64,000 nucleotides of DNA from Styela clava (Eukaryota; Chordata; Ascidiacea; Stolidobranchia; Styelidae): positions 6,396,974-6,460,973 of the forward strand of contig NC_135259.1 of the NCBI RefSeq assembly GCF_964204865.1. Direction: 5' to 3'. Shown here in pieces: positions 1 through 64,000 of the stretch (position 1 is its first letter; the number at the start of each line of letters is the position of its first letter). The notes under the pieces were generated by a model, which worked only from the letters and a program-made list of their open reading frames with translations, had not been told where the DNA came from and ran no database searches. A program made the position numbers and the translations under genes.

Positions 1-14
1 TAAAATCATATAAA

Positions 15-33
15 GTGGATTGTTAGGCTCCAG
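15..33 (-). promoter_or_regulatory. PSE-like promoter element of a U5 copy left of the window
   Basis: Same conserved box as at 4286-4304. The gene it would drive starts about 27 bp further left, before position 1. Confidence 0.5.
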
Positions 34-295
34 ATTGTGATTTTTATCCGCGCGCTTGTTTTCACATTAATTTATTTCTTTTGAGAATATTTCGATTTCA
101 TTGGTCGTCTCATGTTTACTAAAACATTTTTTTTATTATTATCCATTTTCTAATAGCTCAAAGTTAATTGAAAATAGAATAGTTCTCCCATAAAGTCGTG
201 GTGTTCCAGGTCTCTTAATTCATAAAAGAATAAAAGTTGTGAACACAAATTAGCATTCAACAGACCTTTCTGATCTAGAGTATAAGTAAATCATG

Positions 296-413
296 AACCC
301 AGTACATGCTTGGCTTTAAAAATCGCAAAGACTCATTGTGTGCTCCTCTCCACGGAAATCTTTAGTAAAAGGCGAAAGATTTATACGAAAAATGAAGAGA
401 AGCCTGAGTAACT
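296..413 (-). ncRNA. U5: U5 snRNA, copy 1
   Basis: Loop I intact. C103A breaks a 3'-hairpin pair; also U74C, C29U. Confidence 0.82.
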
Positions 414-721
414 AAAGAGCCTTCATAAAGAACTATCAAGTGGATTGTTAGGCTCCAGATTGTGATTTTTATCCGCGCGCTTGTTTTCACATTAATTTAT
501 TTCTTTTGAAAATATTTCGATTTCATTGGTTGTCTCATGTTTACTAAAATATTTTTTATTATTATTATCCATTTTCTAATAACTCAAAGTTAATTGAAAA
601 CTGATGAGTTCTCCCGTAAAGTCGTGGTGTTCCAGGTCTATTAATTCATAAAAGAATAAAAGTTGTGAACACAAATTAGCATTCAACAGACCTTTCTGAT
701 CTAGAGTATGAGTAAATCATG

Positions 722-838
722 AACCCAGTACATACTGGGCTTTAAAAATCGCAAAGACTCATCGTATGCTCCTCTCCACGGAAATATTTATTAAAAGCGA
801 AAGATTTATGCGAAAAATGAAGAGAAGCCTGAATAACT
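722..838 (-). pseudogene. U5: U5 snRNA, copy 2, loop I damaged
   Basis: Loop I has C49A and has lost one C (GCGCC side); G54U breaks the upper stem. Also C106U, A77G, C6U. Probably non-functional. Confidence 0.75.
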
Positions 839-864
839 AGAGAACCTTCGTAAAGACATATCAA

Positions 865-1295
865 GTGGATTGTTAAGTTCCAGATTGTGATTTTTATTCG
901 CGCGCTTGTGTTCATATTATTTTATTTTATTTTAGATTAACTCTATTTCATTTATTGCCTCATGTTTACTAAAACAATTAGATTTATTATTACTAATTTT
1001 CTAATACCTAAATCAAAGTTACTTTAAAACTGAATAGTTCCCCCAAAAAATTCGCGGTGTTTCAGGCCTATTAATTCATAAAAGAATAAACGTGGTGAAC
1101 ACAAATTAGCATTCAACAGACCTTTCTGATCTAGAATATGAGTAAATCATGAACCCAGTACATACTGGGCTTTAAAAATCGCAAAGACTCATTGTATGCT
1201 CCTCTCCACGGAAATCTTTAGTAAAAGGCGAAAGATTCATGCGAAAAATGAAGAGAAGCCTGAGTAACTGGAGAGCCTTCGTAAAATCATATAAA
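865..1295 (-). repeat. Family B monomer (reference)
   Basis: Family B differs from A mainly in the middle spacer: an ATTTTATTTT-rich run, TTAGATTAACTC, CAATTAGATTTATTATTACT and a run of C before AAAAA. The U5 gene and promoter block are nearly the same as in A. B monomers start at 865, 3001, 4711, 6848, 11114, 40035, 40891, 41749, 42612, 43470, 44333, 46042, 46902, 48187, 50591, 51875, 52737, 54020, 57404, 57835, 59543 and 60825, with a half-B hybrid at 37050. Three subtypes are visible: B1 as here; B2 with TTTGCGCGC and TTTACTTTTAG (40891, 42612, 44333, 46902, 50591); and B3 of up to 436 bp with ATTCATTGTCTC (41749, 43470, 46042, 48187, 57835). Confidence 0.9.
1152..1269 (-). ncRNA. U5: U5 snRNA, copy 3
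   Basis: Loop I intact. C106U (hairpin loop), A32G (wobble). Confidence 0.88.
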
Positions 1296-1578
1296 GTGGA
1301 TTGTTAGGCTCCAGATTGTGATTTTTATCCGCGCGCTTGTTTTCACAATAATTCATTTCTTTTGAGAATATTTTGATTTCATTGGTTGTCTCATGTTTAC
1401 TAAAACAGTTTTATTTAATATTATCCATTTTCTAATAACTCAGAAGTTAATTGAAAACTGAATAGTTCTCCCGTAAAGTCGTGGTGTTCCAGGTCTATTA
1501 ATTCATAAAAGAATAAAAGTTGCGAACACAAAATAGCATTCAACAGACCTTTCTGATCTAGAGTATGAGTAAATCATG

Positions 1579-1696
1579 AACCCAGTACATGCGGGGCTTT
1601 AAAAATCGCAAAGACTCATTGTATGCTCCTCTCCAAGGAAATCTTTAGTAAAAGGCGAAAGATTTATGCGAAAAATGAAGAGAAGCCTGAGTAACT
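1579..1696 (-). ncRNA. U5: U5 snRNA, copy 4
   Basis: Loop I intact. A104C breaks a 3'-hairpin pair; G61U. Confidence 0.82.
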
Positions 1697-2005
1697 AGAG
1701 AGGCTTCGTAAAATCATTTAAAGTGGATTGTTAGGCTCCAGATTGTGATTTTTATCCGCGCGCTTGTTTTCACATTAATTTATTTCTTTTGAGAATATTT
1801 CGATTCCATTGGTTGTCTCATGTTTACTAAAACAGTTATATTTAATATTATCCATTTTCTAATAACTCAAAAGTTAATTGAAAACTGAATAGTTCTCCCG
1901 TAAAGTCGTGGTGTTCCAGGTCTATTAATTCATAAAAGAATAAAAGTTGCGAACACATAATAGCATTCAACAGACCTTTCTGATCTAGAGTATGAGTAAA
2001 TCATG

Positions 2006-2123
2006 AACCCAGTACATGCTGGGCTTTAAAAATCGCAAAGACTCATTGTATGCTTCTCTCCACGGAAATCTTTAGTAAAAGGCGAAAGATTTATGCGAAA
2101 AATGAAGAGAAGCCTGAGTAACT
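2006..2123 (-). ncRNA. U5: U5 snRNA, copy 5
   Basis: Loop I intact. Only G69A, which still pairs with U14. Confidence 0.9.
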
Positions 2124-2430
2124 AGAGAGGCTTCGTAAAATCATATAAAGTGGATTGTTAGGCTCCAGATTGTGATTTTTATCCGCGCCCTTGTTTTCAC
2201 ATTAATTTATTTCTTTTGAGAATATTTCGATTTCATTGGTCGTCTCGTGTTTACTAAAACATTTTTTTTAATATTATCCATTTTCTAATAGCTCAAAGTT
2301 AATTGAAAATAGAATAGTTCTCCCATAAAGTCGTGGTGTTCCAGGTCTATTAATTCATAAAAGAATAAAAGTTGTGAACACAAATTAGCATTCAACAGAC
2401 CTTTCTGATCTAGAGTATAAGTAAATCATG

Positions 2431-2548
2431 AACCCAGTTCATGCTGGGCTTTAAAAATCGCAAAGACTCATTGTGTGCTCCTCTCCACGGAAATCTTTAA
2501 TAAAAGGCGAAAGATTTATGCGAAAAATGAAGAGAAGCCTGAGTAACT
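2431..2548 (-). ncRNA. U5: U5 snRNA, copy 6, loop I variant
   Basis: Loop I C49U (CGCCUUUUAUU). Also U110A, U74C. Confidence 0.8.
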
Positions 2549-2856
2549 AAAGAGCCTTCATAAAGAACTATCAAGTGGATTGTTAGGCTCCAGATTGTGA
2601 TTTTTATCCGCGCGCTTGTTTTCACATTAATTTATTTCTTTTGAAAATATTTCGATTTCATTGGTTGTCTCATGTTTACTAAAATATTTTTTTTTATTAT
2701 TATCCATTTTCTAATAACTCAAAGTTAATTGAAAACTGATGAGTTCTCCCGTAAAGTCGTGGTGTTCCAGGTCTATTAATTCATAAAAGAATAAAAGTTG
2801 TGAACACAAATTAGCATTCAACAGACCTTTCTGATCTAGAGTATGAGTAAATCATG

Positions 2857-2974
2857 AACCCAGTACATACTGGGCTTTAAAAATCGCAAAGACTCATTGT
2901 ATGCTCCTCTCCACGGAAATCTTTAGTAAAAGGCGAAAGATTTATGCGAAAAATGAAGAGAAGCCTGAATAACT
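2857..2974 (-). ncRNA. U5: U5 snRNA, copy 7
   Basis: Loop I intact. C106U, C6U (wobble in the basal stem). Confidence 0.88.
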
Positions 2975-3287
2975 AGAGAACCTTCGTAAAGACATATCAA
3001 GTGGATTGTTAAGCTCCAGATTGTGATTTTTATTCGCGCGCTTGTGTTCACATTATTTTATTTTATTTTAGATTAACTCTATTTCATTTATTGCCTCATG
3101 TTTACTAAAACAATTAGATTTATTATTACTAATTTTCTAATACCTAAATCAAAGTTACTTTAAAACTGAATAGTTCCCCCAAAAAATTCGCGGTGTTTCA
3201 GGCCTATTAATTCATAAAAGAATAAACGTGGTGAACACAAATTAGCATTCAACAGACCTTTCTGATCTAGAGTATGAGTAAATCATG

Positions 3288-3405
3288 AACCCAGTACATA
3301 CTGGGCTTTAAAAATCGCAAAGACTCATTGTATGCTCCTCTCCACGGAAATCTTTAGTAAAAGGCAAAAGATTTATGCGAAAAATGAAGAGAAGCCTGAG
3401 TAACT
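3288..3405 (-). ncRNA. U5: U5 snRNA, copy 8, loop I variant
   Basis: First loop base C40U; rest of the loop intact. C106U. Confidence 0.8.
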
Positions 3406-3714
3406 GGAGAGCCTTCGTAAAGACATAAAAAGTGGATTGTTAGGCTCCAGATTGTGATTTTTATCCGCGCGCTTGTTTTCACATTAATTTATTTCTTTTG
3501 AGAATATTTTGATTTCATTGGTTGTCTCATGTTTACTAAAACAGTTATATTTAATATTATCCATTTTCTAATAACTCAAAAGTTAATTGAAAACTGATGA
3601 GTTCTCCCGTAAAGTCGTGGTGTTCCAGGTCTATTAATTCATAAAAGAATAAAAGTTGTGAACACAAATTAGCATTCAACAGACCTTTCTGATCTAGAGT
3701 ATGAGTAAATCTTG

Positions 3715-3832
3715 AACCCACTACATACTGGGCTTTAAAAATCGCAAAGACTCATTGTATGATCCTCTCCACGGAAATCTTTAGTAAAAGGCGAAAGATT
3801 TATGCAAAAAATGAAGAGAAGCCTGAGTAACT
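3715..3832 (-). ncRNA. U5: U5 snRNA, copy 9
   Basis: Loop I intact. C112G and G71U each break a pair; also C106U, C27U. Confidence 0.8.
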
Positions 3833-4114
3833 GGAGAGCCTTCGTAAAATCATATAAAGTGGATTGTTAGGCTCCAGATTGTGATTTTTATCCGCGCGCT
3901 TGTTTTCACATTAATTTATTTCTTTTGAAAATATTTCGATTTCATTGGTTGTCTCATGTTTACTAAAACAGTTATATTTAATATTACCCACTTTCTAATA
4001 ACTCAAAAGTTAATTGAAAACTGAATAGTTCTCCCGTAAAGTCGTGGTGTTCCAGGTCTATTAATTCTTAAAAGAATAAAAGTTGCGAACACAAAATAGC
4101 ATTCAACAGACCTT

Positions 4115-4141
4115 TCTGATCTAGAGTATGAGTAAATCATG
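4115..4141 (-). promoter_or_regulatory. Conserved region just 3' of U5, possible 3' box
   Basis: The 27 bp downstream of the U5 3' hairpin (minus-strand GATTTACTCATACTCTAGA) are conserved in most monomers, where snRNA 3'-end processing signals lie. The match to the vertebrate 3' box is weak. Confidence 0.3.
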
Positions 4142-4259
4142 AACCCAGTACATGCTGGGCTTTAAAAATCGCAAAGACTCATTGTATGCTCCTCTCCACG
4201 GAAATCTTTAGTAAAAGGCGAAAGATTTATGCGAAAAATGAAGAGAAGCCTGAGTAACT
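4142..4259 (-). ncRNA. U5: U5 snRNA, copy 10 (reference)
   Basis: U5 is the RNA core of the U5 snRNP; its loop I holds and aligns the exons in the spliceosome. Minus-strand 118-nt unit, 5' end about AGUUACUC, close to the usual 116 nt. Visible parts: basal stem 5-9 with 79-83 (ACUCA/UGAGU); lower stem 12-20 with 63-71, all nine pairs formed; upper stem 32-39 with 51-58 (AAAUCUUU/AAAGAUUU); loop I 40-50 CGCCUUUUACU, identical to the invariant U5 loop; Sm site 91-97 AUUUUUA; 3' hairpin 99-105 with 112-118 (AGCCCAG/CUGGGUU). The 5' end is set by alignment with metazoan U5 and is uncertain by 1-2 nt. Recognised from memory of metazoan U5. Whether this copy is transcribed cannot be seen. Confidence 0.93.
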
Positions 4260-4276
4260 AGAGAGGCTTCGTAAAA

Positions 4277-4283
4277 TCATATA
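4277..4283 (-). promoter_or_regulatory. TATA-like heptamer, reference copy
   Basis: TATATGA on the minus strand at about -18 to -24. It is present in monomers whose upstream end reads AATCATATAAAG and absent from those reading AGAACTATCAAG or GACATATCAAG. Function is unknown. Confidence 0.25.
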
Positions 4284-4285
4284 AA

Positions 4286-4304
4286 GTGGATTGTTAGGCT
4301 CCAG
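4286..4304 (-). promoter_or_regulatory. PSE-like proximal element, reference copy
   Basis: On the minus strand this reads CTGGAGCCTAACAATCCAC and covers -45 to -27 from the predicted start of U5 copy 10. It is kept in essentially every monomer, A and B, with changes almost only at the two bases after GGAGC (CC, CG, TT, TA). Position and conservation fit an snRNA proximal sequence element. From memory it loosely resembles nematode PSE cores (GGAACC, AAC, TCC), but I cannot check this. The same element lies at every monomer start listed for the array. Confidence 0.55.
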
Positions 4305-4320
4305 ATTGTGATTTTTATCC

Positions 4321-4326
4321 GCGCGC
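4321..4326. promoter_or_regulatory. Conserved GCGCGC palindrome
   Basis: A CpG palindrome at about -62 to -67 of U5 copy 10, next to ATAAAAATCAC. It is kept in both monomer families within a very AT-rich repeat. It may be part of the promoter. Confidence 0.35.
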
Positions 4327-4383
4327 TTGTTTTCACATTAATTTGTTTCTTTTGAGAATATTTCGATTTCATTGGTCGTCTCA

Positions 4384-4390
4384 TGTTTAC
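4384..4390. promoter_or_regulatory. Conserved TGTTTAC motif in the spacer
   Basis: CATGTTTACTAAAA is the best conserved stretch of the otherwise diverged A/B spacer, at about -125 to -131 of U5. TGTTTAC matches the forkhead consensus. It could be a distal element; this is inference. Confidence 0.3.
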
Positions 4391-4566
4391 TAAAACATTT
4401 TTTTTATTATTATCCATTTTCTAATAGCTCAAAGTTAATTGAAAATAGAATAGTTCTCCCATAAAGTCGTGGTGTTCCAGGTCTCTTAATTCATAAAAGA
4501 ATAAAAGTTGTGAACACAAATTAGCATTCAACAGACCTTTCTGATCTAGAGTATAAGTAAATCATG

Positions 4567-4684
4567 AACCCAGTACATGCTGGGCTTCAAAAGTCGCAAA
4601 GACTCATTGTGTTCTCCTCTCCACGGAAATCTTTAGTAAAAGGCGAAAGATGTATGCGAAAAATGAAGAGAAGCCTGAATAACT
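4567..4684 (-). ncRNA. U5: U5 snRNA, copy 11, Sm variant
   Basis: Loop I intact. Sm site altered (U92C, A97G); A33C breaks the upper stem; U74C, C72A, C6U. Confidence 0.75.
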
Positions 4685-4997
4685 AGACAACCTTCGTAAA
4701 GACATATCAAGTGGATTGTTAAGCTCCAGATTGTGATTTTTATACGCGCGCTTGTGTTCACATTATTTTATTTTATTTTAGATTAACTCTATTTCATTTA
4801 TTGCCTCATGTTTACTAAAACAATTAGATTTATTATTACTAATTTTCTAATATCTAAATCAAAGTTACTTTAAAACTGAATAGTTCCCCCAAAAAATTCG
4901 CGGTGTTTCAGGCCTATTAATTCATAAAAGAATAAACGTGGTGAACATAAATTAGCATTCAACAGACCTTTCTGATCTAGAGTATGAGTAAATCATG

Positions 4998-5115
4998 AAC
5001 CCAGTACATACTGGGCTTTAAAAATCGCAAAGACTCATTGTATGCTCCTCTCCAAGGAAATCTTTAGTAAAAGGCGAAAGATTCATGCGAAAAATGAAGA
5101 GAAGCCTGAGTAACT
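4998..5115 (-). ncRNA. U5: U5 snRNA, copy 12
   Basis: Loop I intact. C106U, G61U, A32G. Confidence 0.86.
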
Positions 5116-5424
5116 GGAGAGCCTTCGTAAAATCATATAAAGTGGATTGTTAGGGTCCAGATTGTGATTTTTATCCGCGCGCTTGTTTTCACAATAATTT
5201 ATTTCTTTTGAGAATGTTTTGATTTCATTGGTTGGCTCATGTTTACTAAAACAGTTATATTTAATATTATCCATTTTCTAATAACTCAAAAGTTAATTGA
5301 AAACTGATGAGTTCTCCCGTAAAGTCGTGGTGTTCCAGGTCTATTAATTCATAAAAGAATAAAAGTTGTGAACACAAATTAGCATTCAACAGACCTTTCT
5401 GATCTAGAGTATGAGTAAATCATG

Positions 5425-5542
5425 AACCCAGTACATACTGGGCTTTAAAAATCGCAAAGACTCATTGTATGCTCCTCTCCACGGAAATCTTTAGTAAAAG
5501 GCGAAAGATTTATGCGAAAAATGAAGAGAAGCCTGAGTAACT
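5425..5542 (-). ncRNA. U5: U5 snRNA, copy 13
   Basis: Loop I intact. Only C106U in the 3'-hairpin loop. Confidence 0.9.
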
Positions 5543-5851
5543 GGAGAGCCTTCGTAAAATCATATAAAGTGGATTGTTGGGCTCCAGATTGTGATTTTTA
5601 TCCGCGCGCTTGTTTTCACAATAATTTATTTCTTTTGAGAATATTTTGATTTCATTGGTTGTCTCATGTTTACTAAAACAGTTATATTTAATATTATCCA
5701 TTTTCTAATAACTCAAAAGTTAATTGAAAACTGAATAGTTCTCCCGTAAAGTCGTGGTGTTCCAGGTCTATTAATTCATAAAAGAATAAAAGTTGTGAAC
5801 ACAAATTAGCATTCAACAGACCTTTCTGATCTAGAGTATGAGGAAATCATG

Positions 5852-5969
5852 AACCCAGTAAATGCTGGTCTTTAAAAATCGCAAAGACTCATTGTATGCT
5901 CCTCTCCACGGAAATCTTTAGTAAAAGGCGAAAGATTTATGCGAAAAATGAAGAGAAGCCTGAGTAACT
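5852..5969 (-). ncRNA. U5: U5 snRNA, copy 14
   Basis: Loop I intact. C101A breaks a 3'-hairpin pair; G109U in its loop. Confidence 0.83.
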
Positions 5970-6277
5970 AAAGAGCCTTCGTAAAGAACTATCAAGTGGA
6001 TTGTTCGGCTCCAGATTGTGATTTTTAGCCGCGCGCTTGTTTTCACATTAATTTATTTCTTTTGAGAATATTTCGATTTCATTGGTTGTCTCATGTTTAC
6101 TAAAACATTTTTTTTTATTATTATCCATTTTGTAATAACTCAAAGTTAATTGAAAATTGAATAGTTCTCCCATAAAGTCGTGGTGTTCCAGGTCTATTAA
6201 TTCATAAAAGAATAAAAGTTGTGAACACAAATTAGCATTCAACAGACCTTTCTGATCTAGAGTATAAGTAAATCATG

Positions 6278-6395
6278 AACCCAGTACATGCTGGGCTTTA
6301 AAAATCGCAAAGACTCATTGTGTGCTCCTCTCCACGGAAATCTTTAGTAAAAGGCGAAAGATTTATGCGAAAAATGAAGAGAAGCCTGAGTAACT
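6278..6395 (-). ncRNA. U5: U5 snRNA, copy 15
   Basis: Loop I intact. Only U74C. Confidence 0.9.
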
Positions 6396-6703
6396 AAAGA
6401 GCCTTCATAAAGAACTATCAAGTGGATTGTTAGGCTCCAGATTGTGATTTTTATCCGCGCGCTTGTTTTCACATTAATTTATTTCTTTTGAAAATATTTC
6501 GATTTCATTGGTAGTCTGATGTTTACTAATATATTTTTTTTTATTATTATCCATTTTCTAATAACTCAAAGTTAATTGAAAACTGATGAGTTCTCCCGTA
6601 AAGTCGTGGTGTTCCAGGTCTATTAATTCATAAAAGAATAAAAGTTGTGAACACAAATTAGCATTCAACAGACCTTTCTGATCTAGAGTATGAGTAAATC
6701 ATG

Positions 6704-6821
6704 AACCCAGTACATACTAGGATTTAAAAATCGCAAAGACTCATTGTATGCTCCTCTCCACGGAAATCTTTAGCAAAAGGTAAAAGATTTATGCGAAAAA
6801 TGAAGAGAAGCCTGAATAACT
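6704..6821 (-). pseudogene. U5: U5 snRNA, copy 16, loop I damaged
   Basis: Three loop I changes (C40U, G41A, A48G). Also C106U, C103U, G100U, C6U. Confidence 0.75.
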
Positions 6822-7134
6822 AGAGAACCTTCGTAAAGACATATCAAGTGGATTGTTAAGCTCCAGATTGTGATTTTTATTAGCGCGCTTGTGTTCACAT
6901 TATTTTATTTTATTTTAGATTAACTCTATTTAATTTATTGCCTCATGTTTACTAAAACAATTAGATTTATTATTACTAAGTTTCTAATACCTAAATCAAA
7001 GTTACTTTAAAACTGAATAGTTCCCCCAAAAAAGTCGCGGTGTTCCAGGCCTATTAATTCATAAAAGAATGAACGTGGGGAACACAAATTAGCATTCAAC
7101 AGACCTTTCTGATCAAGAGTATAAGTAAATCATG

Positions 7135-7252
7135 AACCCAGTACATACTGGGCTTTAAAAATCGCAAAGACTCATTGTATGCTCCTCTCCACGGAAATCT
7201 TTAGTAAAAGGCGAAAGATTTATGCGAAAAATGAAGAGAAGCCTGAGTAACT
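7135..7252 (-). ncRNA. U5: U5 snRNA, copy 17
   Basis: Loop I intact. Only C106U, although it sits in a family B monomer. Confidence 0.9.
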
Positions 7253-7561
7253 GGAGAGCCTTCGTAAAATCATATAAAGTGGATTGTTAGGCTCCAGATT
7301 GTGATTTTTATCCGCGCGCTTGTTTTCACATTAATTTATTTCTTTTGAAAATATTTCGATTTCATTGGTTGTCTCATGTTTACTAAAACAGTTATATTTA
7401 ATATTATCCATTTTCTAATAACTCAAAAGTTAATTGAAAACTGAATAGTTCTCCCGTAAAGTCGTGGTGTTCCAGGTCTATTAATTCATAAAAGAATAAA
7501 AGTTGCGAACACAAAATAGCATTCAACAGACCTTTCTGATCTAGAGTATGAGTAAATCATG

Positions 7562-7679
7562 AACCCAGTACATACTGGGCTTTAAAAATCGTAAAGACTC
7601 ATTGTATGCTCCTCTCCACGGAAATCTTTAGAAAAAGGCGAAAGATTTATGCGAAAAATGAAGAGAAGCCTGAGTAACT
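7562..7679 (-). ncRNA. U5: U5 snRNA, copy 18, loop I variant
   Basis: Loop I A48U. Also C106U, G88A. Confidence 0.78.
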
Positions 7680-7986
7680 AGAGAGGCTTCGTAAAATCAT
7701 ATAAAGTGGATTGTTAGGCTCCAGATTGTGATTTTTATCCGCGCGCTTGTTTTCACATTAATTTATTTCTTTTGAGAATATTTCGATTCCATTGGTCGTC
7801 TCATGTTTACTAAAACATTTTTTTTATTATTATCCATTTTCTAATAGCTCAAAGTTAATTGAAAATTGAATAGTTCTCCCATAAAGTCGTGGTGTTCCAG
7901 GTCTATTTATTCATAAAAGAATAAAAGTTGTGAACACAAATTAGCATTCAACAGACCTTTCTTATCTAGAGTATGAGGAAATCATG

Positions 7987-8103
7987 AACCCAGTAAATGC
8001 TGGTCTTTAAAAATCGCAAAGACTCATTGTATGTCCTCTCCACGGAAATCTTTAGTAAAAGGCGAAAGATCTATGCGAAAAATGAAGAGAAGCCTGAGTA
8101 ACT
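7987..8103 (-). ncRNA. U5: U5 snRNA, copy 19
   Basis: Loop I intact. One base lost at about G71; G109U, C101A, A33G. Confidence 0.78.
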
Positions 8104-8412
8104 AAAGAGCCTTCGTAAAGAACTATCAAGTGGATTGTTCGGCTCCAGATTGTGATTTTTATCCGCGCGCTTGTTTTCACATTAATTTATTTCTTTTGAG
8201 AATATTTCGATTTCATTGGTTGTCTCATGTTTACTAAAACATTTTTTTTTTATTATTATCCATTTTGTAATAACTCAAAGTTAATTGAAAATTGAATAGT
8301 TCTCCCATAAAGTCGTGGTGTTCCAGGTCTATTAATTCATAAAAGAATAAAAGTTGTGAACACAAATTAGCATTCAACAGACCTTTCTGATCTAGAGTAT
8401 AGGTAAATCATG

Positions 8413-8530
8413 AACCCAGTACATGCTGGGCTTTAAAAATTGCAAAGACTCATTGTGTGCTCCTCTCCACGGAAATCTTTAGTAAAAGGCGAAAGATTTA
8501 TGCGAAAAATGAAGGGAAGCCTGAGTAACT
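8413..8530 (-). ncRNA. U5: U5 snRNA, copy 20
   Basis: Loop I intact. G90A beside the Sm site, U74C, U16C. Confidence 0.82.
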
Positions 8531-8838
8531 AAAGAGCCTTCATAAAGAACTATCAAGTGGATTGTTATGCTCCAGATTGTGATTTTTATCCGCGCGCTTG
8601 TTTTCACATTAATTTATTTCTTTTGAAAATATTTCGATTTCATTGGTAGTCTCATGTTTACTAAAATATTTTTTTTTATTATTATCCATTTTCTAATAAC
8701 TCAAAGTTAATTGAAAACTGATGAGTTCTCCCGTAAAGTCGTGGTGTTCCAGGTCTAGTAATTCATAAAAGAATAAAAGTTGTGAACACAAATTAGCATT
8801 CAACAGACCTTTCTGATCTAGAGTATGAGTAAATCATG

Positions 8839-8956
8839 AACCCAGTACATACTGGGCTTTAAAAATCGCAAAGACTCATTGTATGCTCCTCTCCACGGAA
8901 ATCTTTAGTAAAAGGCGAAAGATTTATGCGAAAAATGAAGAGAAGCCTGAGTAACT
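8839..8956 (-). ncRNA. U5: U5 snRNA, copy 21
   Basis: Loop I intact. Only C106U. Confidence 0.9.
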
Positions 8957-9265
8957 GGAGAGCCTTCGTAAAATCATATAAAGTGGATTGTTAGGCTCCA
9001 GATTGTGATTTTTATCCGCGCGCTTGTTTTCACAATAATTTATTTCTTTTGAGAATATTTTGATTTCATTGGTTGTCTCATGTTTACTAAAACAGTTATA
9101 TTTAATATTATCCATTTTCTAATAACTCAAAAGTTAATTGAAAACTGAATAGTTCTCCCGTAAAGTCGTGGTGTTCCAGGCCTATTAATTCATAAAAGAA
9201 TAAACGTGGGGAACACAAATTAGCATTCAACAGACCTTTCTGATCAAGAGTATAAGTAAATCATG

Positions 9266-9382
9266 AACCCATACATACTGGGCTTTAAAAATCGCAAAGA
9301 CTCATTGTATGCTCCTCTCCACGGAAATCTTTAGTAAAAGGCGAAAGATTTATGCGAAAAATGAAGAGAAGCCTGAGTAACT
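9266..9382 (-). ncRNA. U5: U5 snRNA, copy 22
   Basis: Loop I intact. C106U and loss of C112 in the 3' hairpin. Lies in an A-to-B hybrid monomer. Confidence 0.83.
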
Positions 9383-10117: not shown

Positions 10118-10235
10118 AACCCAGTACATACTGGGCTTTAAAAATCGTAAAGACTCATTGTATGCTCCTCTCCACGGAAATCTTTAGTAAAAGGCGAAAG
10201 ATTTATGCGAAAAATGAAGAGAAGCCTGAGTAACT
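10118..10235 (-). ncRNA. U5: U5 snRNA, copy 24
   Basis: Loop I intact. C106U, G88A. Confidence 0.88.
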
Positions 10236-10543
10236 AGAGAGGCTTCGTAAAGAACTATCAAGTGGATTGTTCGGCTCCAGATTGTGATTTTTAGCCGCGC
10301 GCTTGTTTTCACATTAATTTATTTCTTTTGAGAATATTTCGATTTCATTGGTTGTCTCATGTTTACTAAAACATTTTTTTTTATTATTATCCATTTTGTA
10401 ACAACTCAAAGTTAATTGAAAATTGAATAGTTCTCCCATAAAGTCGTGGTGTTCCAGGTCTATTAATTCAAAAAAGAATAAAAGTTGTGAACACAAATTA
10501 GCATTCAACAGACCTTTCTGATCTAGAGTATAAGTAAATCATG

Positions 10544-49745: not shown

Positions 49746-49847
49746 AACCCAGTACATGATGAGCTTTGACAATCGCAAAGACTCATTGTATGCTCCTCTC
49801 CACGGAAATCTTTAGTAAAAGGCGAAAGATTTACGCGAAAAATGAAG
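49746..49847 (-). pseudogene. U5: U5 snRNA, copy 117, 5' truncated
   Basis: The 152-bp deletion removes RNA positions 1-16 and the entire promoter block. Loop I remains. It shares the broken Sm site of copy 96 (U94G, U96C, with G105U, C102U); A30G. Confidence 0.85.
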
Positions 49848-49852
49848 TGAGG
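49848..49852. other. 152-bp deletion junction
   Basis: GAAGTGAGG of a U5 gene runs directly into CATTTTTTTTATTATCC of the next spacer. Starts at 49466 and 50165 are 699 bp apart instead of about 851. The 5' end of one U5 gene and its whole promoter block are gone. Confidence 0.9.
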
Positions 49853-50020
49853 CATTTTTTTTATTATCCATTTTCTAATAACTCAAAGTTAATTGAAAAC
49901 TGAATAGTTCTCCCGTAAAGTCGTGGTGTTCCAGATCTATTAATTCATAAAAGAATAAAATTTGTGAACACAAATTAGCATTCAGCAGACCTTTCTGATC
50001 TAGGGTATAAGTAAATCATG

Positions 50021-54732: not shown

Positions 54733-54854
54733 AACCCAGTACATGCTGGGCTTTAAAAATCGCAAAGACTCATTCATTGTGTGCTCCTCTCCACGGAAAT
54801 CTTTAGTAAAAGGCGAAAGATTTATGCGAAAAAAGAAGAGAAGCCTGAGTAACT
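54733..54854 (-). ncRNA. U5: U5 snRNA, copy 129, 4-nt insertion
   Basis: CATT is duplicated (CATTCATTG) beside the basal stem, giving 122 nt. Loop I intact; U74C, A21U. Partner copy 145 lacks the insertion. Confidence 0.82.
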
Positions 54855-55100
54855 AAAGAGCCTTCATAAAGAACTATCAAGTGGATTGTTAGGCTCCAGA
54901 TTGTGATTTTTATCCGCGCGCTTGTTTTCACATTAATTTATTGCTTTTGAAAATATTTCGATTTCATTGGCTGTCTCATGTTTACTAAAATATTTTTTTT
55001 AATATTATCCATTTTCTAATAACTCAAAGTTAATTGAAAATTGAATAGTTCTCCCGTAAAGTCGTGGTGTTCCAGGTCTATTAATTCATAAAAGAATAAA

Positions 55101-55110
55101 AGTTGTGATC
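55101..55110. other. 31-bp deletion junction in the U5 downstream region
   Basis: AGTTGTGATCTAGAG replaces the usual AGTTGTGA...TGATCTAGAG. TGA is repeated at both edges. The partner copy near 61900 is intact. Confidence 0.9.
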
Positions 55111-55130
55111 TAGAGTATAAGTAAATCATG

Positions 55131-55248
55131 AACCCAGTACATACTGGGCTTTAAAAATCGCAAAGACTCATTGTATGCTCCTCTCCACGGAAATCTTTAG
55201 TAAAAGGCGAAAGATTTATGCGAAAAACGAAGAGAAGCCTGAGTAACT
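55131..55248 (-). ncRNA. U5: U5 snRNA, copy 130
   Basis: Loop I intact. C106U, A21G. A 31-bp deletion lies just 3' of the gene. Confidence 0.86.
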
Positions 55249-55557
55249 GGAGAGCCTTCGTAAAATCATATAAAGTGGATTGTTAGGCTCCAGATTGTGA
55301 TTTTTATCCGCGCGCTTGTTTTCACATTAATTTATTTTGTTTTGAGAATATTTCGATTTCATTGGTTGCCTCGTGTTTACTAAAACAGTTATATTTAATA
55401 TTATCCATTTTCTAATAACTCAAAGTTAATTGAAAACTGAATAGTTCTCCCGTGAATTCGTGGTGCTCCAGGTCTATTAATTCATAAAAGAATAAAAGTT
55501 GTGAACACAAAATAGCATTCGACAGACCTTTCTGATCTAGAGTATGAGTAAATCATG

Positions 55558-55675
55558 AACCCAGTACATGCTGGTCTTTAAAAATCGCAAACACTCATTG
55601 TATGCTCCTCTCCACGGAAATCTTTAGTAAAAGGCGAAAGATCTATGCGAAAAATGAAGGAAAGCCTGATTAACT
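55558..55675 (-). ncRNA. U5: U5 snRNA, copy 131
   Basis: Loop I intact. C101A breaks a 3'-hairpin pair; C84G, A33G, U16C, C15U, C6A. Confidence 0.8.
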
Positions 55676-55983
55676 AGAGAGGCTTCGTGAAATCATATAA
55701 AGTGGATTGTTAGGCTCCAGATTGTGATTTTTATCCGCGCGCTTGTTTTCACATTAATTTATTTCTTTTGAAAATATTTCGATTTCATTGGTTGTCTCAT
55801 GTTTACTAAAATATTTTTTTTTATTATTATCCATTTTCTAATAACTCAAAGTTAATTGAAAACTGATGAGTTCTCCCGTAAAGTCGTGGTGTTCCAGGCC
55901 TATTAATTCATAAAAGAATAAACGTGGTGAACACAAATTAGCATTCAACTGACCTTTCTGATCAAGAGTATAAGTAAATCATG

Positions 55984-56100
55984 AACCCAGTACATACTGG
56001 GCTTTAAAAATCGCAAAGACTCATTGTGTGCTCCTCTCCACGGAAATCTTTAGTAAAAGGCGAAAGATTATTCGAAAAATGAAGAGAAGCCTGAGTAACT
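55984..56100 (-). ncRNA. U5: U5 snRNA, copy 132
   Basis: Loop I intact. One base lost at about 30-32, C29A, C106U, U74C. Confidence 0.82.
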
Positions 56101-56407
56101 AAAGAGCCTTCATAAAGAACTATCAAGTGGCTTGTTAGGCTCCAGATTGTGATTTTTATCCGCGCGCTTGTTTTCACATTAATTTATTTCTTTTGAAAAT
56201 ATTTTGATTTCATTGGTCGTCTCATGTTTACTAAAACATTTTTTTTATTATTATCCATTTTCTAATAACTCAAAATTAATTGAAAACTAAATAGTTCTCC
56301 CGTAAAGTCGTGGTGTTCCAGGTCTATTAATTCATAAAAGAATTATAGTTGTGAACACAAATTAGCATTCAACAGACCTTTCTGATCTAGAGTATGAGGA
56401 AATCATG

Positions 56408-56525
56408 AACCCAGTACATGATGGGCTTTAAAAATCGCAAAGACTCATTGTATGCTCCTCTCCATGGAAATCTTTAGTAAAAGGCGAAAGATCTATGCGA
56501 AAAATGAAGAGAAGCCTGAGTAACT
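56408..56525 (-). ncRNA. U5: U5 snRNA, copy 133
   Basis: Loop I intact. G105U, G61A, A33G. Confidence 0.83.
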
Positions 56526-56833
56526 AAAGAGCCTTCGTAAAGATCTATCAAGTGGATTGTTAGGCTCCAGATTGTGATTTTTATCCGCGCGCTTGTTTTC
56601 ACATTAATTTATTTCTTTTGAAAATATTTCGATTTCATTGGTTGTCTCATGTTTACTAAAATATTTTTTTTTATTATTATCCATTTTCTAATAACTCAAA
56701 GTTAATTGAAAACTGAATAGTTCTCCCGTAAAGTCGTGGTGTTCCAGGTCTATTAATTCATAAAAGAATAAAAGTTGTGAACACAAAATATCATTCGACA
56801 GACCTTTCTGATCTTGAGTTTGAGTAAATCATG

Positions 56834-56951
56834 AACCCAGTACATGCTGGGCTTTAAAAATCGCAAACACTCATTGTATGCTCCTCTCCACGGAAATCTT
56901 TAGTAAAAGTCGAAAGATTTATGCGAAAAATGAAGGAAAGCTTGACTAACT
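56834..56951 (-). ncRNA. U5: U5 snRNA, copy 134, loop I variant
   Basis: Loop I C42A. Also C84G, U16C, C15U, G10A, C6G. Confidence 0.75.
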
Positions 56952-57259
56952 AAAGAGGCTTCGTAAAATCATATAAAGTGGATTGTTAGGCTCCAGATTG
57001 TGATTTTTATCCGCGCGCTTGTTTTCACATTAATTTATTTCTTTTAAGAATATTTCGATTTCATTGGTCGTCTCATGTTTACTAAAACATTTTTTTTTAT
57101 TATTATCCATTTTCTAATAACTCAAAGTTAATTGAAAATTGAATAGTTCTCCCGTAAAATCGTGGTGTTCCAGGTCTATTAATTCATAAAAGAATAAAAG
57201 TTGTGAACACAAATTAGCATTCAACAGACCTTTCTGATCTAGAGTATAAGTAAATCATG

Positions 57260-57377
57260 AACCCAGTACATGCTGGGCTTTAAAAATCGCAAAGACTCGT
57301 CGTATGCTCCTCTCCACCGAAATCTTTAGTAAAAGGCGAAAGATTTATGCGAAAAATGAAGAGAAGCCTGAATAACT
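57260..57377 (-). ncRNA. U5: U5 snRNA, copy 135
   Basis: Loop I intact. U79C, A77G, C60G, C6U. Confidence 0.82.
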
Positions 57378-57690
57378 AGAGAACCTTCGTAAAGACATAT
57401 CAAGTGGATTGTTAAGCTCCAGATTGTGATTTTTATTCGCGCGCTTGTGTTCACATTATTTTATTTTATTTTAGATTAACTCTATTTCATTTATTGCCTC
57501 ATGTTTACTAAAACAGTTAGATTTATTATTACTAATTTTCTAATACCTAAATCAAAGTTACTTTAAAACTGAATAGTTCCCCCCAAAAAGTCACGGTGTT
57601 CCAGGCCTATTAATTCATAAAAGAATAAACGTGGTGAACACAAATTAGCATTCAACAGACCTTTCTGATCAAGAGTATAAGTAAATCATG

Positions 57691-57808
57691 AACCCAGCAC
57701 ATACTGAGCTTTAAAAATCGCAAACACTCATTGTATGCTCCTCTCCACGGAAATCTTTAGTAAAAGGCGAAAGATTTATGCGAAAAATGAAGAGAAGCCT
57801 GAATAACT
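57691..57808 (-). ncRNA. U5: U5 snRNA, copy 136
   Basis: Loop I intact. A111G, C106U, C102U, C84G, C6U. Confidence 0.83.
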
Positions 57809-58121
57809 ACAGAACCTTCATAAAGACATATCAAGTGGATTGTTAAGCTCCAGATTGTGATTTTTATTCGCGCGCTTGTGTTCACATTATTTTATTTTAT
57901 TTTAGAGTAACTCTATTTCATTCATTGTCTCATGTTTACTAAAACATTTAGATTTATTATTACTAATTTTCTAATACCTAAATCAAAGTTACTTTAAAAC
58001 TGAATAGTTCCCCCCAAAAAGTCGCGGTGTTCCAGGCCTATTAATTCATAAAAGAATAAACGTGGTGAACACAAATTAGCATTCAACTGTCCTTTCTGAT
58101 CAAGAGTATAAGTAAATCATG

Positions 58122-58239
58122 AACCCAGTACATACTGGGCTTTAAAAATCGCAAAGACTCATTGTATGCCCCTCCCCACGGAAATCTTTAGTAAAAGGCG
58201 AAAGATTTATGCGAAAAATGAAGAGAAGCCTGATTAACT
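58122..58239 (-). ncRNA. U5: U5 snRNA, copy 137
   Basis: Loop I intact. C106U, A70G, A65G, C6A. Confidence 0.83.
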
Positions 58240-58547
58240 GGAGAGCCTTCGTAAAATCATATAAAGTGGATTGTTAGGCTCCAGATTGTGATTTTTATCC
58301 GGGCGCTTGTTTTCACATTAATTTATTTTTTTTGAGAATGTTTCGATTTCATTGGTTGTCTCGTGTTTACTAAAACAGTTATATTTAATATTATCCATTC
58401 TCTGATAACTCAAAGTTAATTGAAAACTGAATAGTTCTCCCGTAAAGTCGTGGTGTTCCAGGTCTATTAATTCATAAAACAATAAAAGTTGTGAACACAA
58501 ATTAGCATTCAACAGACCTTTCTGATCTAGAGTATGAGTAAATCACG

Positions 58548-58665
58548 AACCCAGTACATGCTGGGCTTTAAAAATTGCAAACACTCATTGTATGCTCCTC
58601 TCCACAGAAATCTTTAGTAAAAGGCGAAAGATTTATGCGAAAAATGAAGGAAAGCCTGAGTAACT
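58548..58665 (-). ncRNA. U5: U5 snRNA, copy 138
   Basis: Loop I intact. G90A, C84G, C60U, U16C, C15U; close to copy 124. Confidence 0.83.
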
Positions 58666-58973
58666 AGAGAGGCTTCGTAAAATCATATAAAGTGGATTGT
58701 TAGGCTCCAGATTGTGATTTTTATCCGCGCGCTTGTTTTCACATTAATTTATTTCTTTTAAGAATATTTCGATTTCATTGGTCGTCTCATGTTTACTAAA
58801 ATATTTTTTTTTATTATTATCCATTTTCTAATAACTCAAAGTTAATTGAAAATTGAATAGTTCTCCCGTAAAGTCGTGGTGTTCCAGGTCTATTAATTCA
58901 TAAAACAATAAAAGTTGTGAACACAAATTAGCATTCAACAGACCTTTCTGATCTAGAGTATAAGTAAATCATG

Positions 58974-59091
58974 AACCCAGTACATGCTGGGCTTTAAAAA
59001 TCGCAAAGACTCATTGTGTGCTCCTCTCCACGGAAATCTTTAGTAAAAGGCAAAAGATTTATGCGAAAAATGAAGAGAAGCCTGAGTAACT
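58974..59091 (-). ncRNA. U5: U5 snRNA, copy 139, loop I variant
   Basis: First loop base C40U; U74C. Confidence 0.8.
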
Positions 59092-59398
59092 AAAGAGCCT
59101 TCATAAAGAACTATCAAGTGGATTGTTAGGCTCCAGATTGTGATTTTTATCCGCGCGCTTGTTTTCACATTAATTTATTTCTTTTGAAAATATTTTGATT
59201 TCATTGGTCGTCTCATGTTTACTGAAACATTTTTTTTATTATTATCCATTTTCTAATAACTCAAAGTTAATTGAAAATTGAATAGTTCTCCCGTAAAGTC
59301 GTGGTGTTCCAGGTCTATTAATTCATAAAAGAATAAAAGTTGTGAACACAATTTAGCATTCAACAGACCTTTCAGATCTAGAGTATAAGTAAATCATG

Positions 59399-59516
59399 AA
59401 CCCAGTACATGCTGGGCTTTAAAAATCGCAAAGACTCATTGTATGCTCCTCTCCACGGAAATCTTTAGTAAAAGGCGAAAGATTTATGCGAAAAATGAAG
59501 AGAAGCCTGAATAACT
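59399..59516 (-). ncRNA. U5: U5 snRNA, copy 140
   Basis: Loop I intact. Only C6U. Confidence 0.9.
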
Positions 59517-59829
59517 AGAGAACCTTCGTAAAGACATATCAAGTGGATTGTTAAGCTCCAGATTGTGATTTTTATTCGCGCGCTTGTGTTCACATCATTT
59601 TATTTTATTTTAGATTAACTCTATTTCATTTATTGCCTCATGTTTACTAAAACAATTAGATTTATTATTACTAATTTTCTAATACCTAAATCAAAGTTAC
59701 TTTAAAACTGAATAGTTCCCCCCAAAAAGTCGCGGTGTTCCAGGTCTATTAATTCATAAAAGAATAAAAGTTGTGAACACAAATTAGCATTCAACTGACC
59801 TTTCTGATCAAGAGTATAAGTAAATCATG

Positions 59830-59947
59830 AACCCAGTACATACTGGGCTTTAAAAATCGAAAAGACTCATTGTATGCTCCGCCCCACGGAAATCTTCAGT
59901 AAAAGGCGAAAGATTTATGCGAAAAATGAAGAGAAGCCTGAGTAACT
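59830..59947 (-). ncRNA. U5: U5 snRNA, copy 141
   Basis: Loop I intact. As copy 125 (C106U, G88U, A67C, A65G) plus A51G. Confidence 0.81.
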
Positions 59948-60255
59948 GGAGAGCCTTCGTAAAATCATATAAAGTGGATTGTTAGGCTCCAGATTGTGAT
60001 TTTTATCCGCGTGCTTGTTTTCACATTAATTTATTTTTTTTGAGAATGTTTCGATTTCATTGGTTGTCTCGTGTTTACTAAAACAGTAATATTTGATATT
60101 ATCCATTTTCAAATAACTCAAAGTTAATTGAAAACTGAATAGTTCTCCCGTAAAGTCGTGGTGTTCCAGGTCTATTAATTCATAAAAGAATAAAAGTTGT
60201 GAACACAAATTAGCATTCGACGGACCTTTCTGATCTTGAGTTTGAGTAAATCATG

Positions 60256-60372
60256 AACCCAGTACATGCTGGGCTTTAAAAATCGCAAACACTCATTGTA
60301 TGCTCCTCTCCACGGAAATTTTAGTAAAAGGCGAAAGATTAAAGCGAAAAATGAAGGAAAGCCTGAGTAACT
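60256..60372 (-). ncRNA. U5: U5 snRNA, copy 142
   Basis: Loop I intact, but one upper-stem base (G54) is lost; A32U, A30U, C84G, U16C, C15U. Probably non-functional. Confidence 0.76.
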
Positions 60373-60680
60373 AGAGAGGCTTCGTAAAATCATATAAAGT
60401 GGATTGTTAGGCTCCAGATTGTGATTTTTATCCGCACGCTTGTTTTCACATTAATTTATTTCTTTTAAGAATATTTCGATTTCATTGGTCGTCTCATGTT
60501 TACTAAAACATTTTTTTTTATTATTATCCATTTTCTAATAACTCAAAGTTAATTGAAAATTGAATAGTTCTCCCGTAAAGTCGTGGTGTTCCAGGTCTAT
60601 TAATTCATAAAAGAATAAAAGTTGTGAACACAAATTAGCATTCAACAGACCTTTCTGATCTAGAGTATAAGTAAATCATG

Positions 60681-60798
60681 AACCCAGTACATGCTGGGCT
60701 TTAAAAATCGCAAAGACTCATCGTATGCTCCTCTCCACGGAAATCTTTAGTAAAAGGCGAAAGATTTATGCGAAAAATGAAGAGAAGCCTGAATAACT
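60681..60798 (-). ncRNA. U5: U5 snRNA, copy 143
   Basis: Same as copy 127: A77G, C6U. Confidence 0.88.
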
Positions 60799-61111
60799 AG
60801 AGAACCTTCGTAAAGACATATCAAGTGGATTGTTAAGCTCCAGATTGTGATTTTTATTCGCGCGCTTGTGTTCATATTATTTTATTTTATTTTAGATTAA
60901 CTCTATTTCATTTATTGCCTCATGTTTACTAAAACAATTAGATTTATTATTACTAATTTTCTAATACCTAAATCAAAGTTACTTTAAAACTGAATAGTTC
61001 CCCCCAAAAAGTCGCGGTGTTCCAGGCCTATTAATTCATAAAAGAATAAACGTGGTGAACACAAATTAGCATTCAACAGACCTTTCTGATCAAGAGTATA
61101 AGTAAATCATG

Positions 61112-61229
61112 AACCCAGTACATACTGAGCTTTAAAAATCGCAAACACTCATTGTATGCTCCTCTCCACGGAAATCTTTAGTAAAAGGCGAAAGATTTAT
61201 GCGAAAAATGAAGAGAAGCCAGAGTAACT
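61112..61229 (-). ncRNA. U5: U5 snRNA, copy 144
   Basis: As copy 128 (C106U, C102U, C84G) plus A9U. Confidence 0.83.
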
Positions 61230-61537
61230 GGAGAGCCTTCGTAAAATCATATAAAGTGGATTGTTAGGCTCCAGATTGTGATTTTTATCCGCGCGCTTGT
61301 TTTCACATTAATTTATTTCTTTTGAGAATATTGCGATTTCATTGGTCGTCTCATGTTTACTAAAACATTTTTTTTTATTATTATCCATTTTCTAATAACT
61401 CAAAGTTAATTAAAAATTGAATAGTTCTCCCGTAAAGTCGTGGTGTTCCAGGTCTATTAATTCATAAAAGAATAAAAGTTGTGAACACAAATTAGCACTC
61501 AACAGACCTTTCTGATCTAGAGTATAAGTAAATCATG

Positions 61538-61655
61538 AACCCAGTACATGCTGGGCTTTAAAAATCGCAAAGACTCATTGTGTGCTCCTCTCCACGGAAA
61601 TCTTTAGTAAAAGGCGAAAGATTTATGCGAAAAAAGAAGAGAAGCCTGAGTAACT
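61538..61655 (-). ncRNA. U5: U5 snRNA, copy 145
   Basis: Loop I intact. U74C, A21U. Confidence 0.87.
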
Positions 61656-61963
61656 AAAGAGCCTTCATAAAGAACTATTAAGTGGATTGTTAGGCTCCAG
61701 ATTGTGATTTTTATCCGCGCGCTTGTTTTCACATTAATTTATTGCTTTTGAAAATATTTCGATTTCATTGGCTGTCTCATGTTTACTAAAATATTTTTTT
61801 TTAATATTATCCATTTTCTAATAACTCAAAGTTAATTGAAAATTGAATTGTTCTCCCGTAAAGTCGTGGTGTTCCAGGTCTATTAATTCATAAAAGAATA
61901 AAAGTTGTGAACACAAATTAGCATTCAACAGACCTTTCTGATCTAGAGTATAAGTAAATCATG

Positions 61964-62081
61964 AACCCAGTACATACTGGGCTTTAAAAATCGCAAAGAC
62001 TCATTGTATGCTCCTCTCCACGGAAATCTTTAGTAAAAGGCGAAAGATCTATGCTAAAAATGAAGGAAAGCCTGAGTAACT
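61964..62081 (-). ncRNA. U5: U5 snRNA, copy 146
   Basis: Loop I intact. C106U, A33G, C27A, U16C, C15U. Differs clearly from partner copy 130. Confidence 0.83.
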
Positions 62082-62390
62082 AGAGAGCCTTCGTAAAATC
62101 ATATAAAGTGGATTGTTAGGCTCCAGATTGTGATTTTTATCCGCGCGCTTGTTTTCACATTAATTTATTTTGTTTTGAGAATATTTCGATTTCATTGGTT
62201 GCCTCGTGTTTACTAAAACAGTTATATTTAATATTATCCATTTTCTAATAACTCAAAGTTAATTGAAAACTGAATAGTTCTCCCGTGAATTCGTGGTGCT
62301 CCAGGTCTATTAATTCATAAAAGAATAAAAGTTGTGAACACAAAATAGCATTCGACAGACCTTTCTGATCTAGAGTATGAGTAAATCATG

Positions 62391-62508
62391 AACCCAGTAC
62401 ATGCTGGTCTTTAAAAATCGCAAACACTCATTGTATGCTCCTCTCCACGGAAATCTTTAGTAAAAGGCGAAAGATCTATGCGAAAAATGAAGGAAAGCCT
62501 GATTAACT
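62391..62508 (-). ncRNA. U5: U5 snRNA, copy 147
   Basis: Same variants as copy 131, 6833 bp earlier. Confidence 0.8.
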
Positions 62509-62816
62509 AGAGAGGCTTCGTGAAATCATATAAAGTGGATTGTTAGGCTCCAGATTGTGATTTTTATCCGCGCGCTTGTTTTCACATTAATTTATTTCTT
62601 TTGAAAATATTTCGATTTCATTGGTTGTCTCATGTTTACTAAAATATTTTTTTTTATTATTATCCATTTTCTAATAACTCAAAGTTAATTGAAAACTGAT
62701 GAGTTCTCCCGTAAAGTCGTGGTGTTCCAGGCCTATTAATTCATAAAAGAATAAACGTGGTGAACACAAATTAGCATTCAACTGACCTTTCTGATCAAGA
62801 GTATAAGTAAATCATG

Positions 62817-62933
62817 AACCCAGTACATACTGGGCTTTAAAAATCGCAAAGACTCATTGTGTGCTCCTCTCCACGGAAATCTTTAGTAAAAGGCGAAAGA
62901 TTATTCGAAAAATGAAGAGAAGCCTGAGTAACT
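62817..62933 (-). ncRNA. U5: U5 snRNA, copy 148
   Basis: Same variants as copy 132, 6833 bp earlier. Confidence 0.82.
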
Positions 62934-63240
62934 AAAGAGCCTTCATAAAGAACTATCAAGTGGCTTGTTAGGCTCCAGATTGTGATTTTTATCCGCGCGC
63001 TTGTTTTCACATTAATTTATTTCTTTTGAAAATATTTTGATTTCATTGGTCGTCTCATGTTTACTAAAACATTTTTTTTATTATTATCCATTTTCTAATA
63101 ACTCAAAATTAATTGAAAACTAAATAGTTCTCCCGTAAAGTCGTGGTGTTCCAGGTCTATTAATTCATAAAAGAATTATAGTTGTGAACACAAATTAGCA
63201 TTCAACAGACCTTTCTGATCTAGAGTATGAGGAAATCATG

Positions 63241-63358
63241 AACCCAGTACATGATGGGCTTTAAAAATCGCAAAGACTCATTGTATGCTCCTCTCCATGG
63301 AAATCTTTAGTAAAAGGCGAAAGATCTATGCGAAAAATGAAGAGAAGCCTGAGTAACT
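63241..63358 (-). ncRNA. U5: U5 snRNA, copy 149
   Basis: Same variants as copy 133, 6833 bp earlier. Confidence 0.83.
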
Positions 63359-63666
63359 AAAGAGCCTTCGTAAAGATCTATCAAGTGGATTGTTAGGCTC
63401 CAGATTGTGATTTTTATCCGCGCGCTTGTTTTCACATTAATTTATTTCTTTTGAAAATATTTCGATTTCATTGGTTGTCTCATGTTTACTAAAATATTTT
63501 TTTTTATTATTATCCATTTTCTAATAACTCAAAGTTAATTGAAAACTGAATAGTTCTCCCGTAAAGTCGTGGTGTTCCAGGTCTATTAATTCATAAAAGA
63601 ATAAAAGTTGTGAACACAAAATATCACTCGACAGACCTTTCTGATCTTGAGTTTGAGTAAATCATG

Positions 63667-63784
63667 AACCCAGTACATGCTGGGCTTTAAAAATCGCAAA
63701 CACTCATTGTATGCTCCTCTCCACGGAAATCTTTAGTAAAAGTCGAAAGATTTATGCGAAAAATGAAGGAAAGCTTGACTAACT
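63667..63784 (-). ncRNA. U5: U5 snRNA, copy 150, loop I variant
   Basis: Same variants as copy 134, including loop I C42A. Last U5 gene in the window. Confidence 0.75.
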
Positions 63785-64000
63785 AAAGAGGCTTCGTAAA
63801 ATCATATAAAGTGGATTGTTAGGCTCCAGATTGTGATTTTTATCCGCGCGCTTGTTTTCCCATTAATTTATTTCTTTTAAGAATATTTCGATTTCATTGG
63901 TCGTCTCATGTTTACTAAAACATTTTTTTTTATTATTATCCATTTTCTAATAACTCAAAGTTAATTGAAAATTGAATAGTTCTCCCGTAAAATCGTGGTG

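Follow-up and report, generated by a model that had tools for sequence, protein, structure and literature searches.

A 477-copy tandem array of U5 snRNA genes in Styela clava with a variation pattern suggestive of selection

The 64,000 nucleotides of Styela clava DNA analysed here (contig NC_135259.1, written C13:6396974-6460973 and called the window below) come from an assembly of 376.6 Mb in 379 contigs and consist of tandem repeats that each carry a gene for the U5 small nuclear RNA (snRNA). This U5 array is real and gene-like. The window belongs to a tandem array of 477 copies, in which each unit comprises a U5 gene preceded by a conserved block, and it is probable from the sequence that a substantial fraction of the copies is functional. 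The pattern of variation among the units suggests that selection still guards the U5 RNA and its promoter. Selection on the RNA is well supported by this pattern and selection on the promoter less so.

Extent and layout of the U5 array

The Rfam U5 family (RF00020) has 150 matches in the window, each with at least the gathering score of 40 bits and all on the minus strand. Among these, 149 span the model positions 1-117, with scores of 61.0-92.6 bits and lengths of 113-119 nt. The same scan of the window found no family besides U5, so the unit holds U5 alone. Tandem Repeats Finder reports a single array over positions 1-64000 with a period of 426 and 149.5 copies, and blastn with the gene of one unit also finds 150 copies. 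The original prediction of a minus-strand tandem array of U5 genes in ~427-bp repeats is thereby borne out, and every one of the 150 copies exceeds the threshold of the U5 model. The predicted RNA of 118 nt is near the matched length, with putative RNA ends.

Searching C13:6220001-6500000 (280 kb) with the same blastn query, we found that the whole array has 477 U5 copies and extends over 202,127 bp (C13:6265898-6468024), with other DNA on both sides. The window, with its 150 copies in ~426-bp units, covers about one third of it. The array is therefore open at both ends in the window, as had been predicted, but bounded in the genome. It is broken by one 1.9-kb insertion at C13:6293297-6295196, the sole interruption of that size. 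Two diverged U5 matches are found in the right flank, with 77% identity at C13:6480863 and 73% identity at C13:6486544.

Exact shared 200-mers occur most often at offsets of 6,833 and 4,673 bp, which indicates recent block duplications. The array thus shares with satellites the long head-to-tail arrangement with block duplications. The mean identity between units is 0.888 at lag 1 and does not exceed 0.904 over lags 1 to 60, and a strong regular higher-order period does not appear. The higher-order repeats of the original prediction are in this respect block duplications rather than a regular period.

RNA structure and variation among the units

The top-scoring U5 copy of the window (92.6 bits, positions 10119-10233, minus strand) can serve as an example of the unit. 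On the same strand it carries the loop I word GCCTTTTAC at 10187-10195, an ATTTTT core as putative Sm site at 10140-10145 and, by pairing, the 3' hairpin at 10119-10136. A conserved block from -61 to -41 upstream of the gene (10274-10294) is a candidate proximal sequence element (PSE).

To compare the copies, we aligned 455 units of 380-460 bp, taken from 478 intervals between neighbouring blastn matches with the other 23 excluded, and dropped the columns present in at most half of the units, which left 426 of 554 columns. Unless stated otherwise, the following results refer to these 455 units. The invariant U5 loop I word GCCUUUUAC, which had been predicted for every copy, is exact in 394 units and changed in the rest. 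The Sm motif that we used, ATTTTT[AG]AAG, is found in 365 units at the expected place before the 3' hairpin, but with an A as the base after the U run, and represents a putative Sm site. The predicted matching stems and 3' hairpin are confirmed, as 95.7% of the cells are paired over 30 pairs and all units, compared with 34-55% when the partners are slid. All 28 counted stem pairs are intact in 226 units and at most one is broken in 376, while 432 units keep at least 20 of the 21 bases of the upstream block. Many array copies are damaged. One example is the copy at 49786-49853 on the minus strand (51.4 bits, model positions 9-74), in which the spacer is joined straight to the gene interior and the gene 5' end and the upstream block are lost.

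On average, diversity is lower in the gene (0.046) than in the spacer (0.109). Because low mean diversity can stem from few subfamilies, we compared frequency classes of variants. Variants found in one or two units occur at similar rates per site in the gene (0.678), the -61 to -41 block (0.857) and the rest of the unit (0.745). Variants found in more than 10% of the units occur at 0.035 per site in the gene, 0 in the block and 0.200 in the rest, and are thus about sixfold scarcer in the gene than in the rest of the unit. Since the rare-variant rates are alike and the common variants scarcer in the gene, the mutation input is similar and common variants are depleted. For common variants the gene contrast has a Fisher p of 0.00038, and after thinning p is 3.8e-6 (146 units more than 3% apart) or 1.1e-5 (277 units more than 1% apart); for the block the values are 0.029, 0.035 and 0.020 for the 455, 146 and 277 units, all of these p values being optimistic because sites and units are linked, which tells against our reading. 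Restricted to the 149 units of the window, the gene contrast gives p = 5e-5, with one common variant in the block.

Stem variants were also tested for pairing, with the innermost hairpin pair omitted. The pair is kept by 8 of the 66 stem variants found in 1-4 units, by 7 of the 23 found in 5-9 units and by 9 of the 15 found in at least 10 units (p = 0.00024 for the first against the last class). With transitions only, the respective counts are 8 of 21 and 9 of 10 (p = 0.009). Five of the six common variants that break a pair sit in the 3' hairpin. This variation pattern is what one would expect if changes that harm the RNA or its base pairing were prevented from spreading. By the frequency-class and pairing tests, constraint tied to the RNA product, which a satellite should lack, is present, and these tests support the view that the copies behave as genes under selection, unlike a dead satellite.

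Promoter candidate, dispersed U5 genes and rival explanations

We built a PSE matrix of 20 bases from 12 snRNA genes outside the main arrays (4 U5, 4 U2, 2 U1, 1 U4 and 1 U6), with seeds chosen as CCAYRA-like words. When the class of the scanned gene is excluded from the matrix, the seed comes out as the best site in 12 of 12 genes, 55-57 bases upstream of the gene (63 for U6). When one array unit of each class is scanned, the best matrix site is found 56 bases upstream for U1, U2 and U4 and 63 for U6, and with the U5 genes omitted from the matrix it is found 54 bases upstream in the U5 array consensus. Among 500 shuffles, the best score is attained by 17-41 for U1, 11-24 for U2, 55-103 for U4 and 172-196 for U6. 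The -61 to -41 block of the U5 array overlaps the location of this element common to the 12 other snRNA genes. It has the lowest variability of all 21-bp windows, and after thinning the lowest outside the gene, with edges that were fixed after the per-base values had been seen. An inverted promoter element (GTTAGG word, opposite strand) was dropped, as the matrix scores lower on the reverse strand. Transcription by RNA polymerase III is judged unlikely because two runs of five T occur within the U5 gene.

Outside the gene, another conserved run occupies unit positions +136 to +154, counted from the first base of the gene, and is possibly linked to 3' end formation. A reading of this run as a 3' box was considered, and no tie to a known 3' box was made.

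The genome-wide family searches (U1, U2, U4, U5, U6 and U12) score the best candidates only. Among the best 46 U5 candidates, those outside the array are at C1:2775213, C1:2441187, C1:2440501 and C6:7555350. A 34-base word taken from loop I and the stem that follows has 306 exact occurrences genome-wide, 303 of them in the C13 region and three on C1; no second U5 array was found with this exact word, which a diverged array would escape. In a comparison of these four dispersed genes with five array genes, 98.5% of the pair cells are paired. Four pairs are changed on both sides, which is reached in 16 of 500 shuffles, in 8 cells, which is reached in none of the 500.

Several observations weigh against an array with a substantial functional fraction. 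If one broken pair is allowed, only 267 of the 455 units pass for loop, Sm motif and block; if every pair must be intact, 168 do. At the innermost position of the 3' hairpin, 276 units have C-A, and only 37% of the units have a pair. In the alignment, the first base of the array genes is T and that of the dispersed U5 genes A, which makes the start site uncertain. Further pair types between dispersed and array genes are no more frequent than in shuffles, 383 of 500 of which reach the same number. In the U5 array the PSE matrix gives a weak score: the best one is attained by 160-190 of 500 shuffles, the full matrix slightly prefers a site at -75 (2.1, compared with 2.0), and when the whole unit is scanned a site at +210 exceeds both (2.7). 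The candidate U5 promoter is therefore supported by its location and conservation more than by its sequence. Finally, with four other U5 genes elsewhere, three on C1 and one on C6, the array need not be the main U5 source. The original prediction would have fallen if a separate locus accounted for all U5 RNA; further genes that could be such a supply do exist.

An explanation that we regard as unlikely is a satellite that arose from one U5 gene and spread by unequal exchange, with pseudogenes as its copies and with the entire U5 supply coming from the dispersed genes on C1 and C6. It draws on those four genes, three of which have a strong promoter element, as well as on the many damaged copies, the block duplications typical of satellites and the weak matrix score of the PSE candidate in the array. 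However, dead copies are not expected to keep a conserved block at the promoter position, nor do they account for the depletion of common variants in the gene at a similar rare-variant input or for common stem variants that keep pairs. It is because of the frequency-class and pairing tests that we do not prefer it.

More doubtful still is a relict, that is, a cluster that was functional until recently and is now silenced, with the old selection signal still visible while damage accumulates. Rare variants are equally common in gene and spacer and 84% or more of the rare stem variants (58 of 66) break pairs, which would fit relaxed selection today, but by reasoning the same pattern fits a working array, because selection per copy would be expected to be weak among hundreds. 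The inflation of a small cluster by an assembly artefact is very improbable, since the long exact-match blocks at offsets of 6,833 and 4,673 bp that might point to it are set against 265 distinct gene sequences among the 455 units, the lack of any ambiguous base (N) in the 280-kb region and both array boundaries inside one 22.5-Mb contig.

For the preferred explanation, an array with a substantial functional fraction, we propose the following mechanism. RNA polymerase II would use a PSE-type promoter to transcribe each intact unit, and the U5 RNA from the array would take up the Sm ring and join U5 small nuclear ribonucleoproteins. Unequal exchange would duplicate blocks and spread variants, and these would be filtered by selection on the total U5 output or on the array isoform. 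Least certain is the idea that the array may serve a stage of very high demand (for instance the oocyte or early embryo) while the few dispersed U5 genes provide the basal supply; the analogy here is with the U1 genes that Xenopus and sea urchin express in the embryo.

Other snRNA arrays and known systems

The U5 array does not stand alone, since the other four major snRNAs (U1, U2, U4 and U6) likewise occur in arrays or clusters. For U2, 39 of the 46 best candidates are found at C6:17.53-17.79 Mb (array C6:17529476-17788488). A 40-base word of the array type with at most two mismatches occurs 231 times genome-wide, and among the places listed, which are part of these 231, all but one are inside the C6 array, mostly 1,169 bp apart. 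For U6, 47 of the 48 best candidates are at C1:19.46-19.60 Mb (array C1:19458916-19601185), and a 30-base word with at most two mismatches occurs 347 times genome-wide, with most of the matches listed in the C1 array. The best 42 candidates for U4 include 30 at C4:20.09-20.16 Mb and 10 at C10:7.36-7.43 Mb. Those for U1, also 42, include 36 in groups on C5:2.50-4.66 Mb and four on C10. U1 and U4 genes are near each other at C10:7309690-7812000, away from the main C5 and C4 arrays. U12, the sole minor snRNA examined, has three matches, two of which are over the cut-off.

Consistent differences between array and dispersed types are found in the aligned copies of U1 (3 vs 3), U2 (3 vs 3), U5 (5 vs 4) and U6 (2 vs 1), and little difference is found for U4 (2 vs 2). 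In U1 stem-loop II all seven pairs are kept, and four pairs are changed on both sides (33 of 500 shuffles) in 9 cells (0 of 500). The array U2 isoform keeps its 5' half and has a much altered 3' half, which makes the function of the array U2 less sure. As read by eye, the 5' stem of the U6 array is unlike that of the C4 gene, with the pairing preserved.

The genome-wide pattern of snRNA arrays is a stronger lead than the U5 array alone. The pure U5 gene cluster of the original prediction keeps its U5-only unit and copies that look selected, with the qualifications that many copies are damaged and that the other four major snRNAs are arrayed too. As a tentative idea, a second amplified set of major snRNAs (U1, U2, U4, U5 and U6, mainly on C5, C6, C4, C13 and C1), with isoforms unlike the dispersed set, might supply a stage-specific spliceosome, for example a maternal or embryonic one, while U12 stays at two genes.

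In Xenopus and sea urchin, the embryonic U1 and U2 genes form large tandem arrays beside a few other genes. The U5 genes of Xenopus laevis reportedly also lie in tandem repeats (Kazmaier, Tebb and Mattaj in 1987 are said to have described them), possibly the nearest precedent for repeated U5. Xenopus and sea urchin have U1 isoforms of oocytes and embryos that are replaced later (PMC4291461), and snRNA isoforms switch in development in Drosophila, mouse and Xenopus; the literature used here comprises PMC8167085, PMC7754599, PMC4291461, PMC3464664, PMC13326754, PMC5006418, PMC3706591, PMC8704543 and PMC545797. Unlike the U1 systems of Xenopus and sea urchin, the array described here is one of U5 with a ~426-bp unit, and U4, U6 and U2 are arrayed as well. 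Fishes (Plectorhinchus and others) have tandem U2-U5 units in which the U5 genes have their own PSE and 3' box (PMC3464664); U5 genes are thus in tandem arrays there too, but share the unit with U2, whereas the unit here holds U5 alone. In the tunicate Didemnum vexillum, the major snRNAs are multicopy and the minor ones few (PMC5006418, PMC8704543), as in Styela clava, where U12 is the minor snRNA examined, and 12, later 9, U5 loci are given, compared with 477 copies in the array here, a comparison in which arrays may be collapsed in draft assemblies. In the open literature surveyed, no report of an array with hundreds of U5-only units was found, and a precedent may exist, as most subscription papers lie outside that survey. 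Tandem snRNA genes are already known; what is new is the size of the array, the U5-only unit and the genome-wide pattern.

Some further features of the genome were noted. In the right flank of the U5 array, three open frames beside the array were tested against Pfam, and none of the three has a Pfam match. Two similar minus-strand open frames adjoin the array (7198-8106 and 7934-8269, in the coordinates of two separate sequence pieces) and have no Pfam match; they are perhaps a duplicated gene. A search for COX1 gave no match. C13 ends in TTAGGG repeats, which fill its last 200 bases. For let-7 there are four genome matches, one of them over the cut-off. C9, which carries let-7, also has one GH6 exon (35.4 bits, cut-off 27). 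GH6 genes are not known from animals other than tunicates. The GH6 genes of tunicates are considered to have been horizontally acquired (PMC7464555). Taken together, these features point to a tunicate as the probable source of the DNA.

In Styela clava the gene of a core splicing RNA is organised like a satellite, and repeat masking would hide the array. Its hundreds of natural U5 variants, seemingly filtered by selection, are in effect a mutational scan of U5 carried out by nature. Should the arrays of major snRNAs form a coordinated second set, stage-specific spliceosomes in one animal would become directly testable, and so would the roles of dosage selection and homogenisation in multicopy RNA genes.

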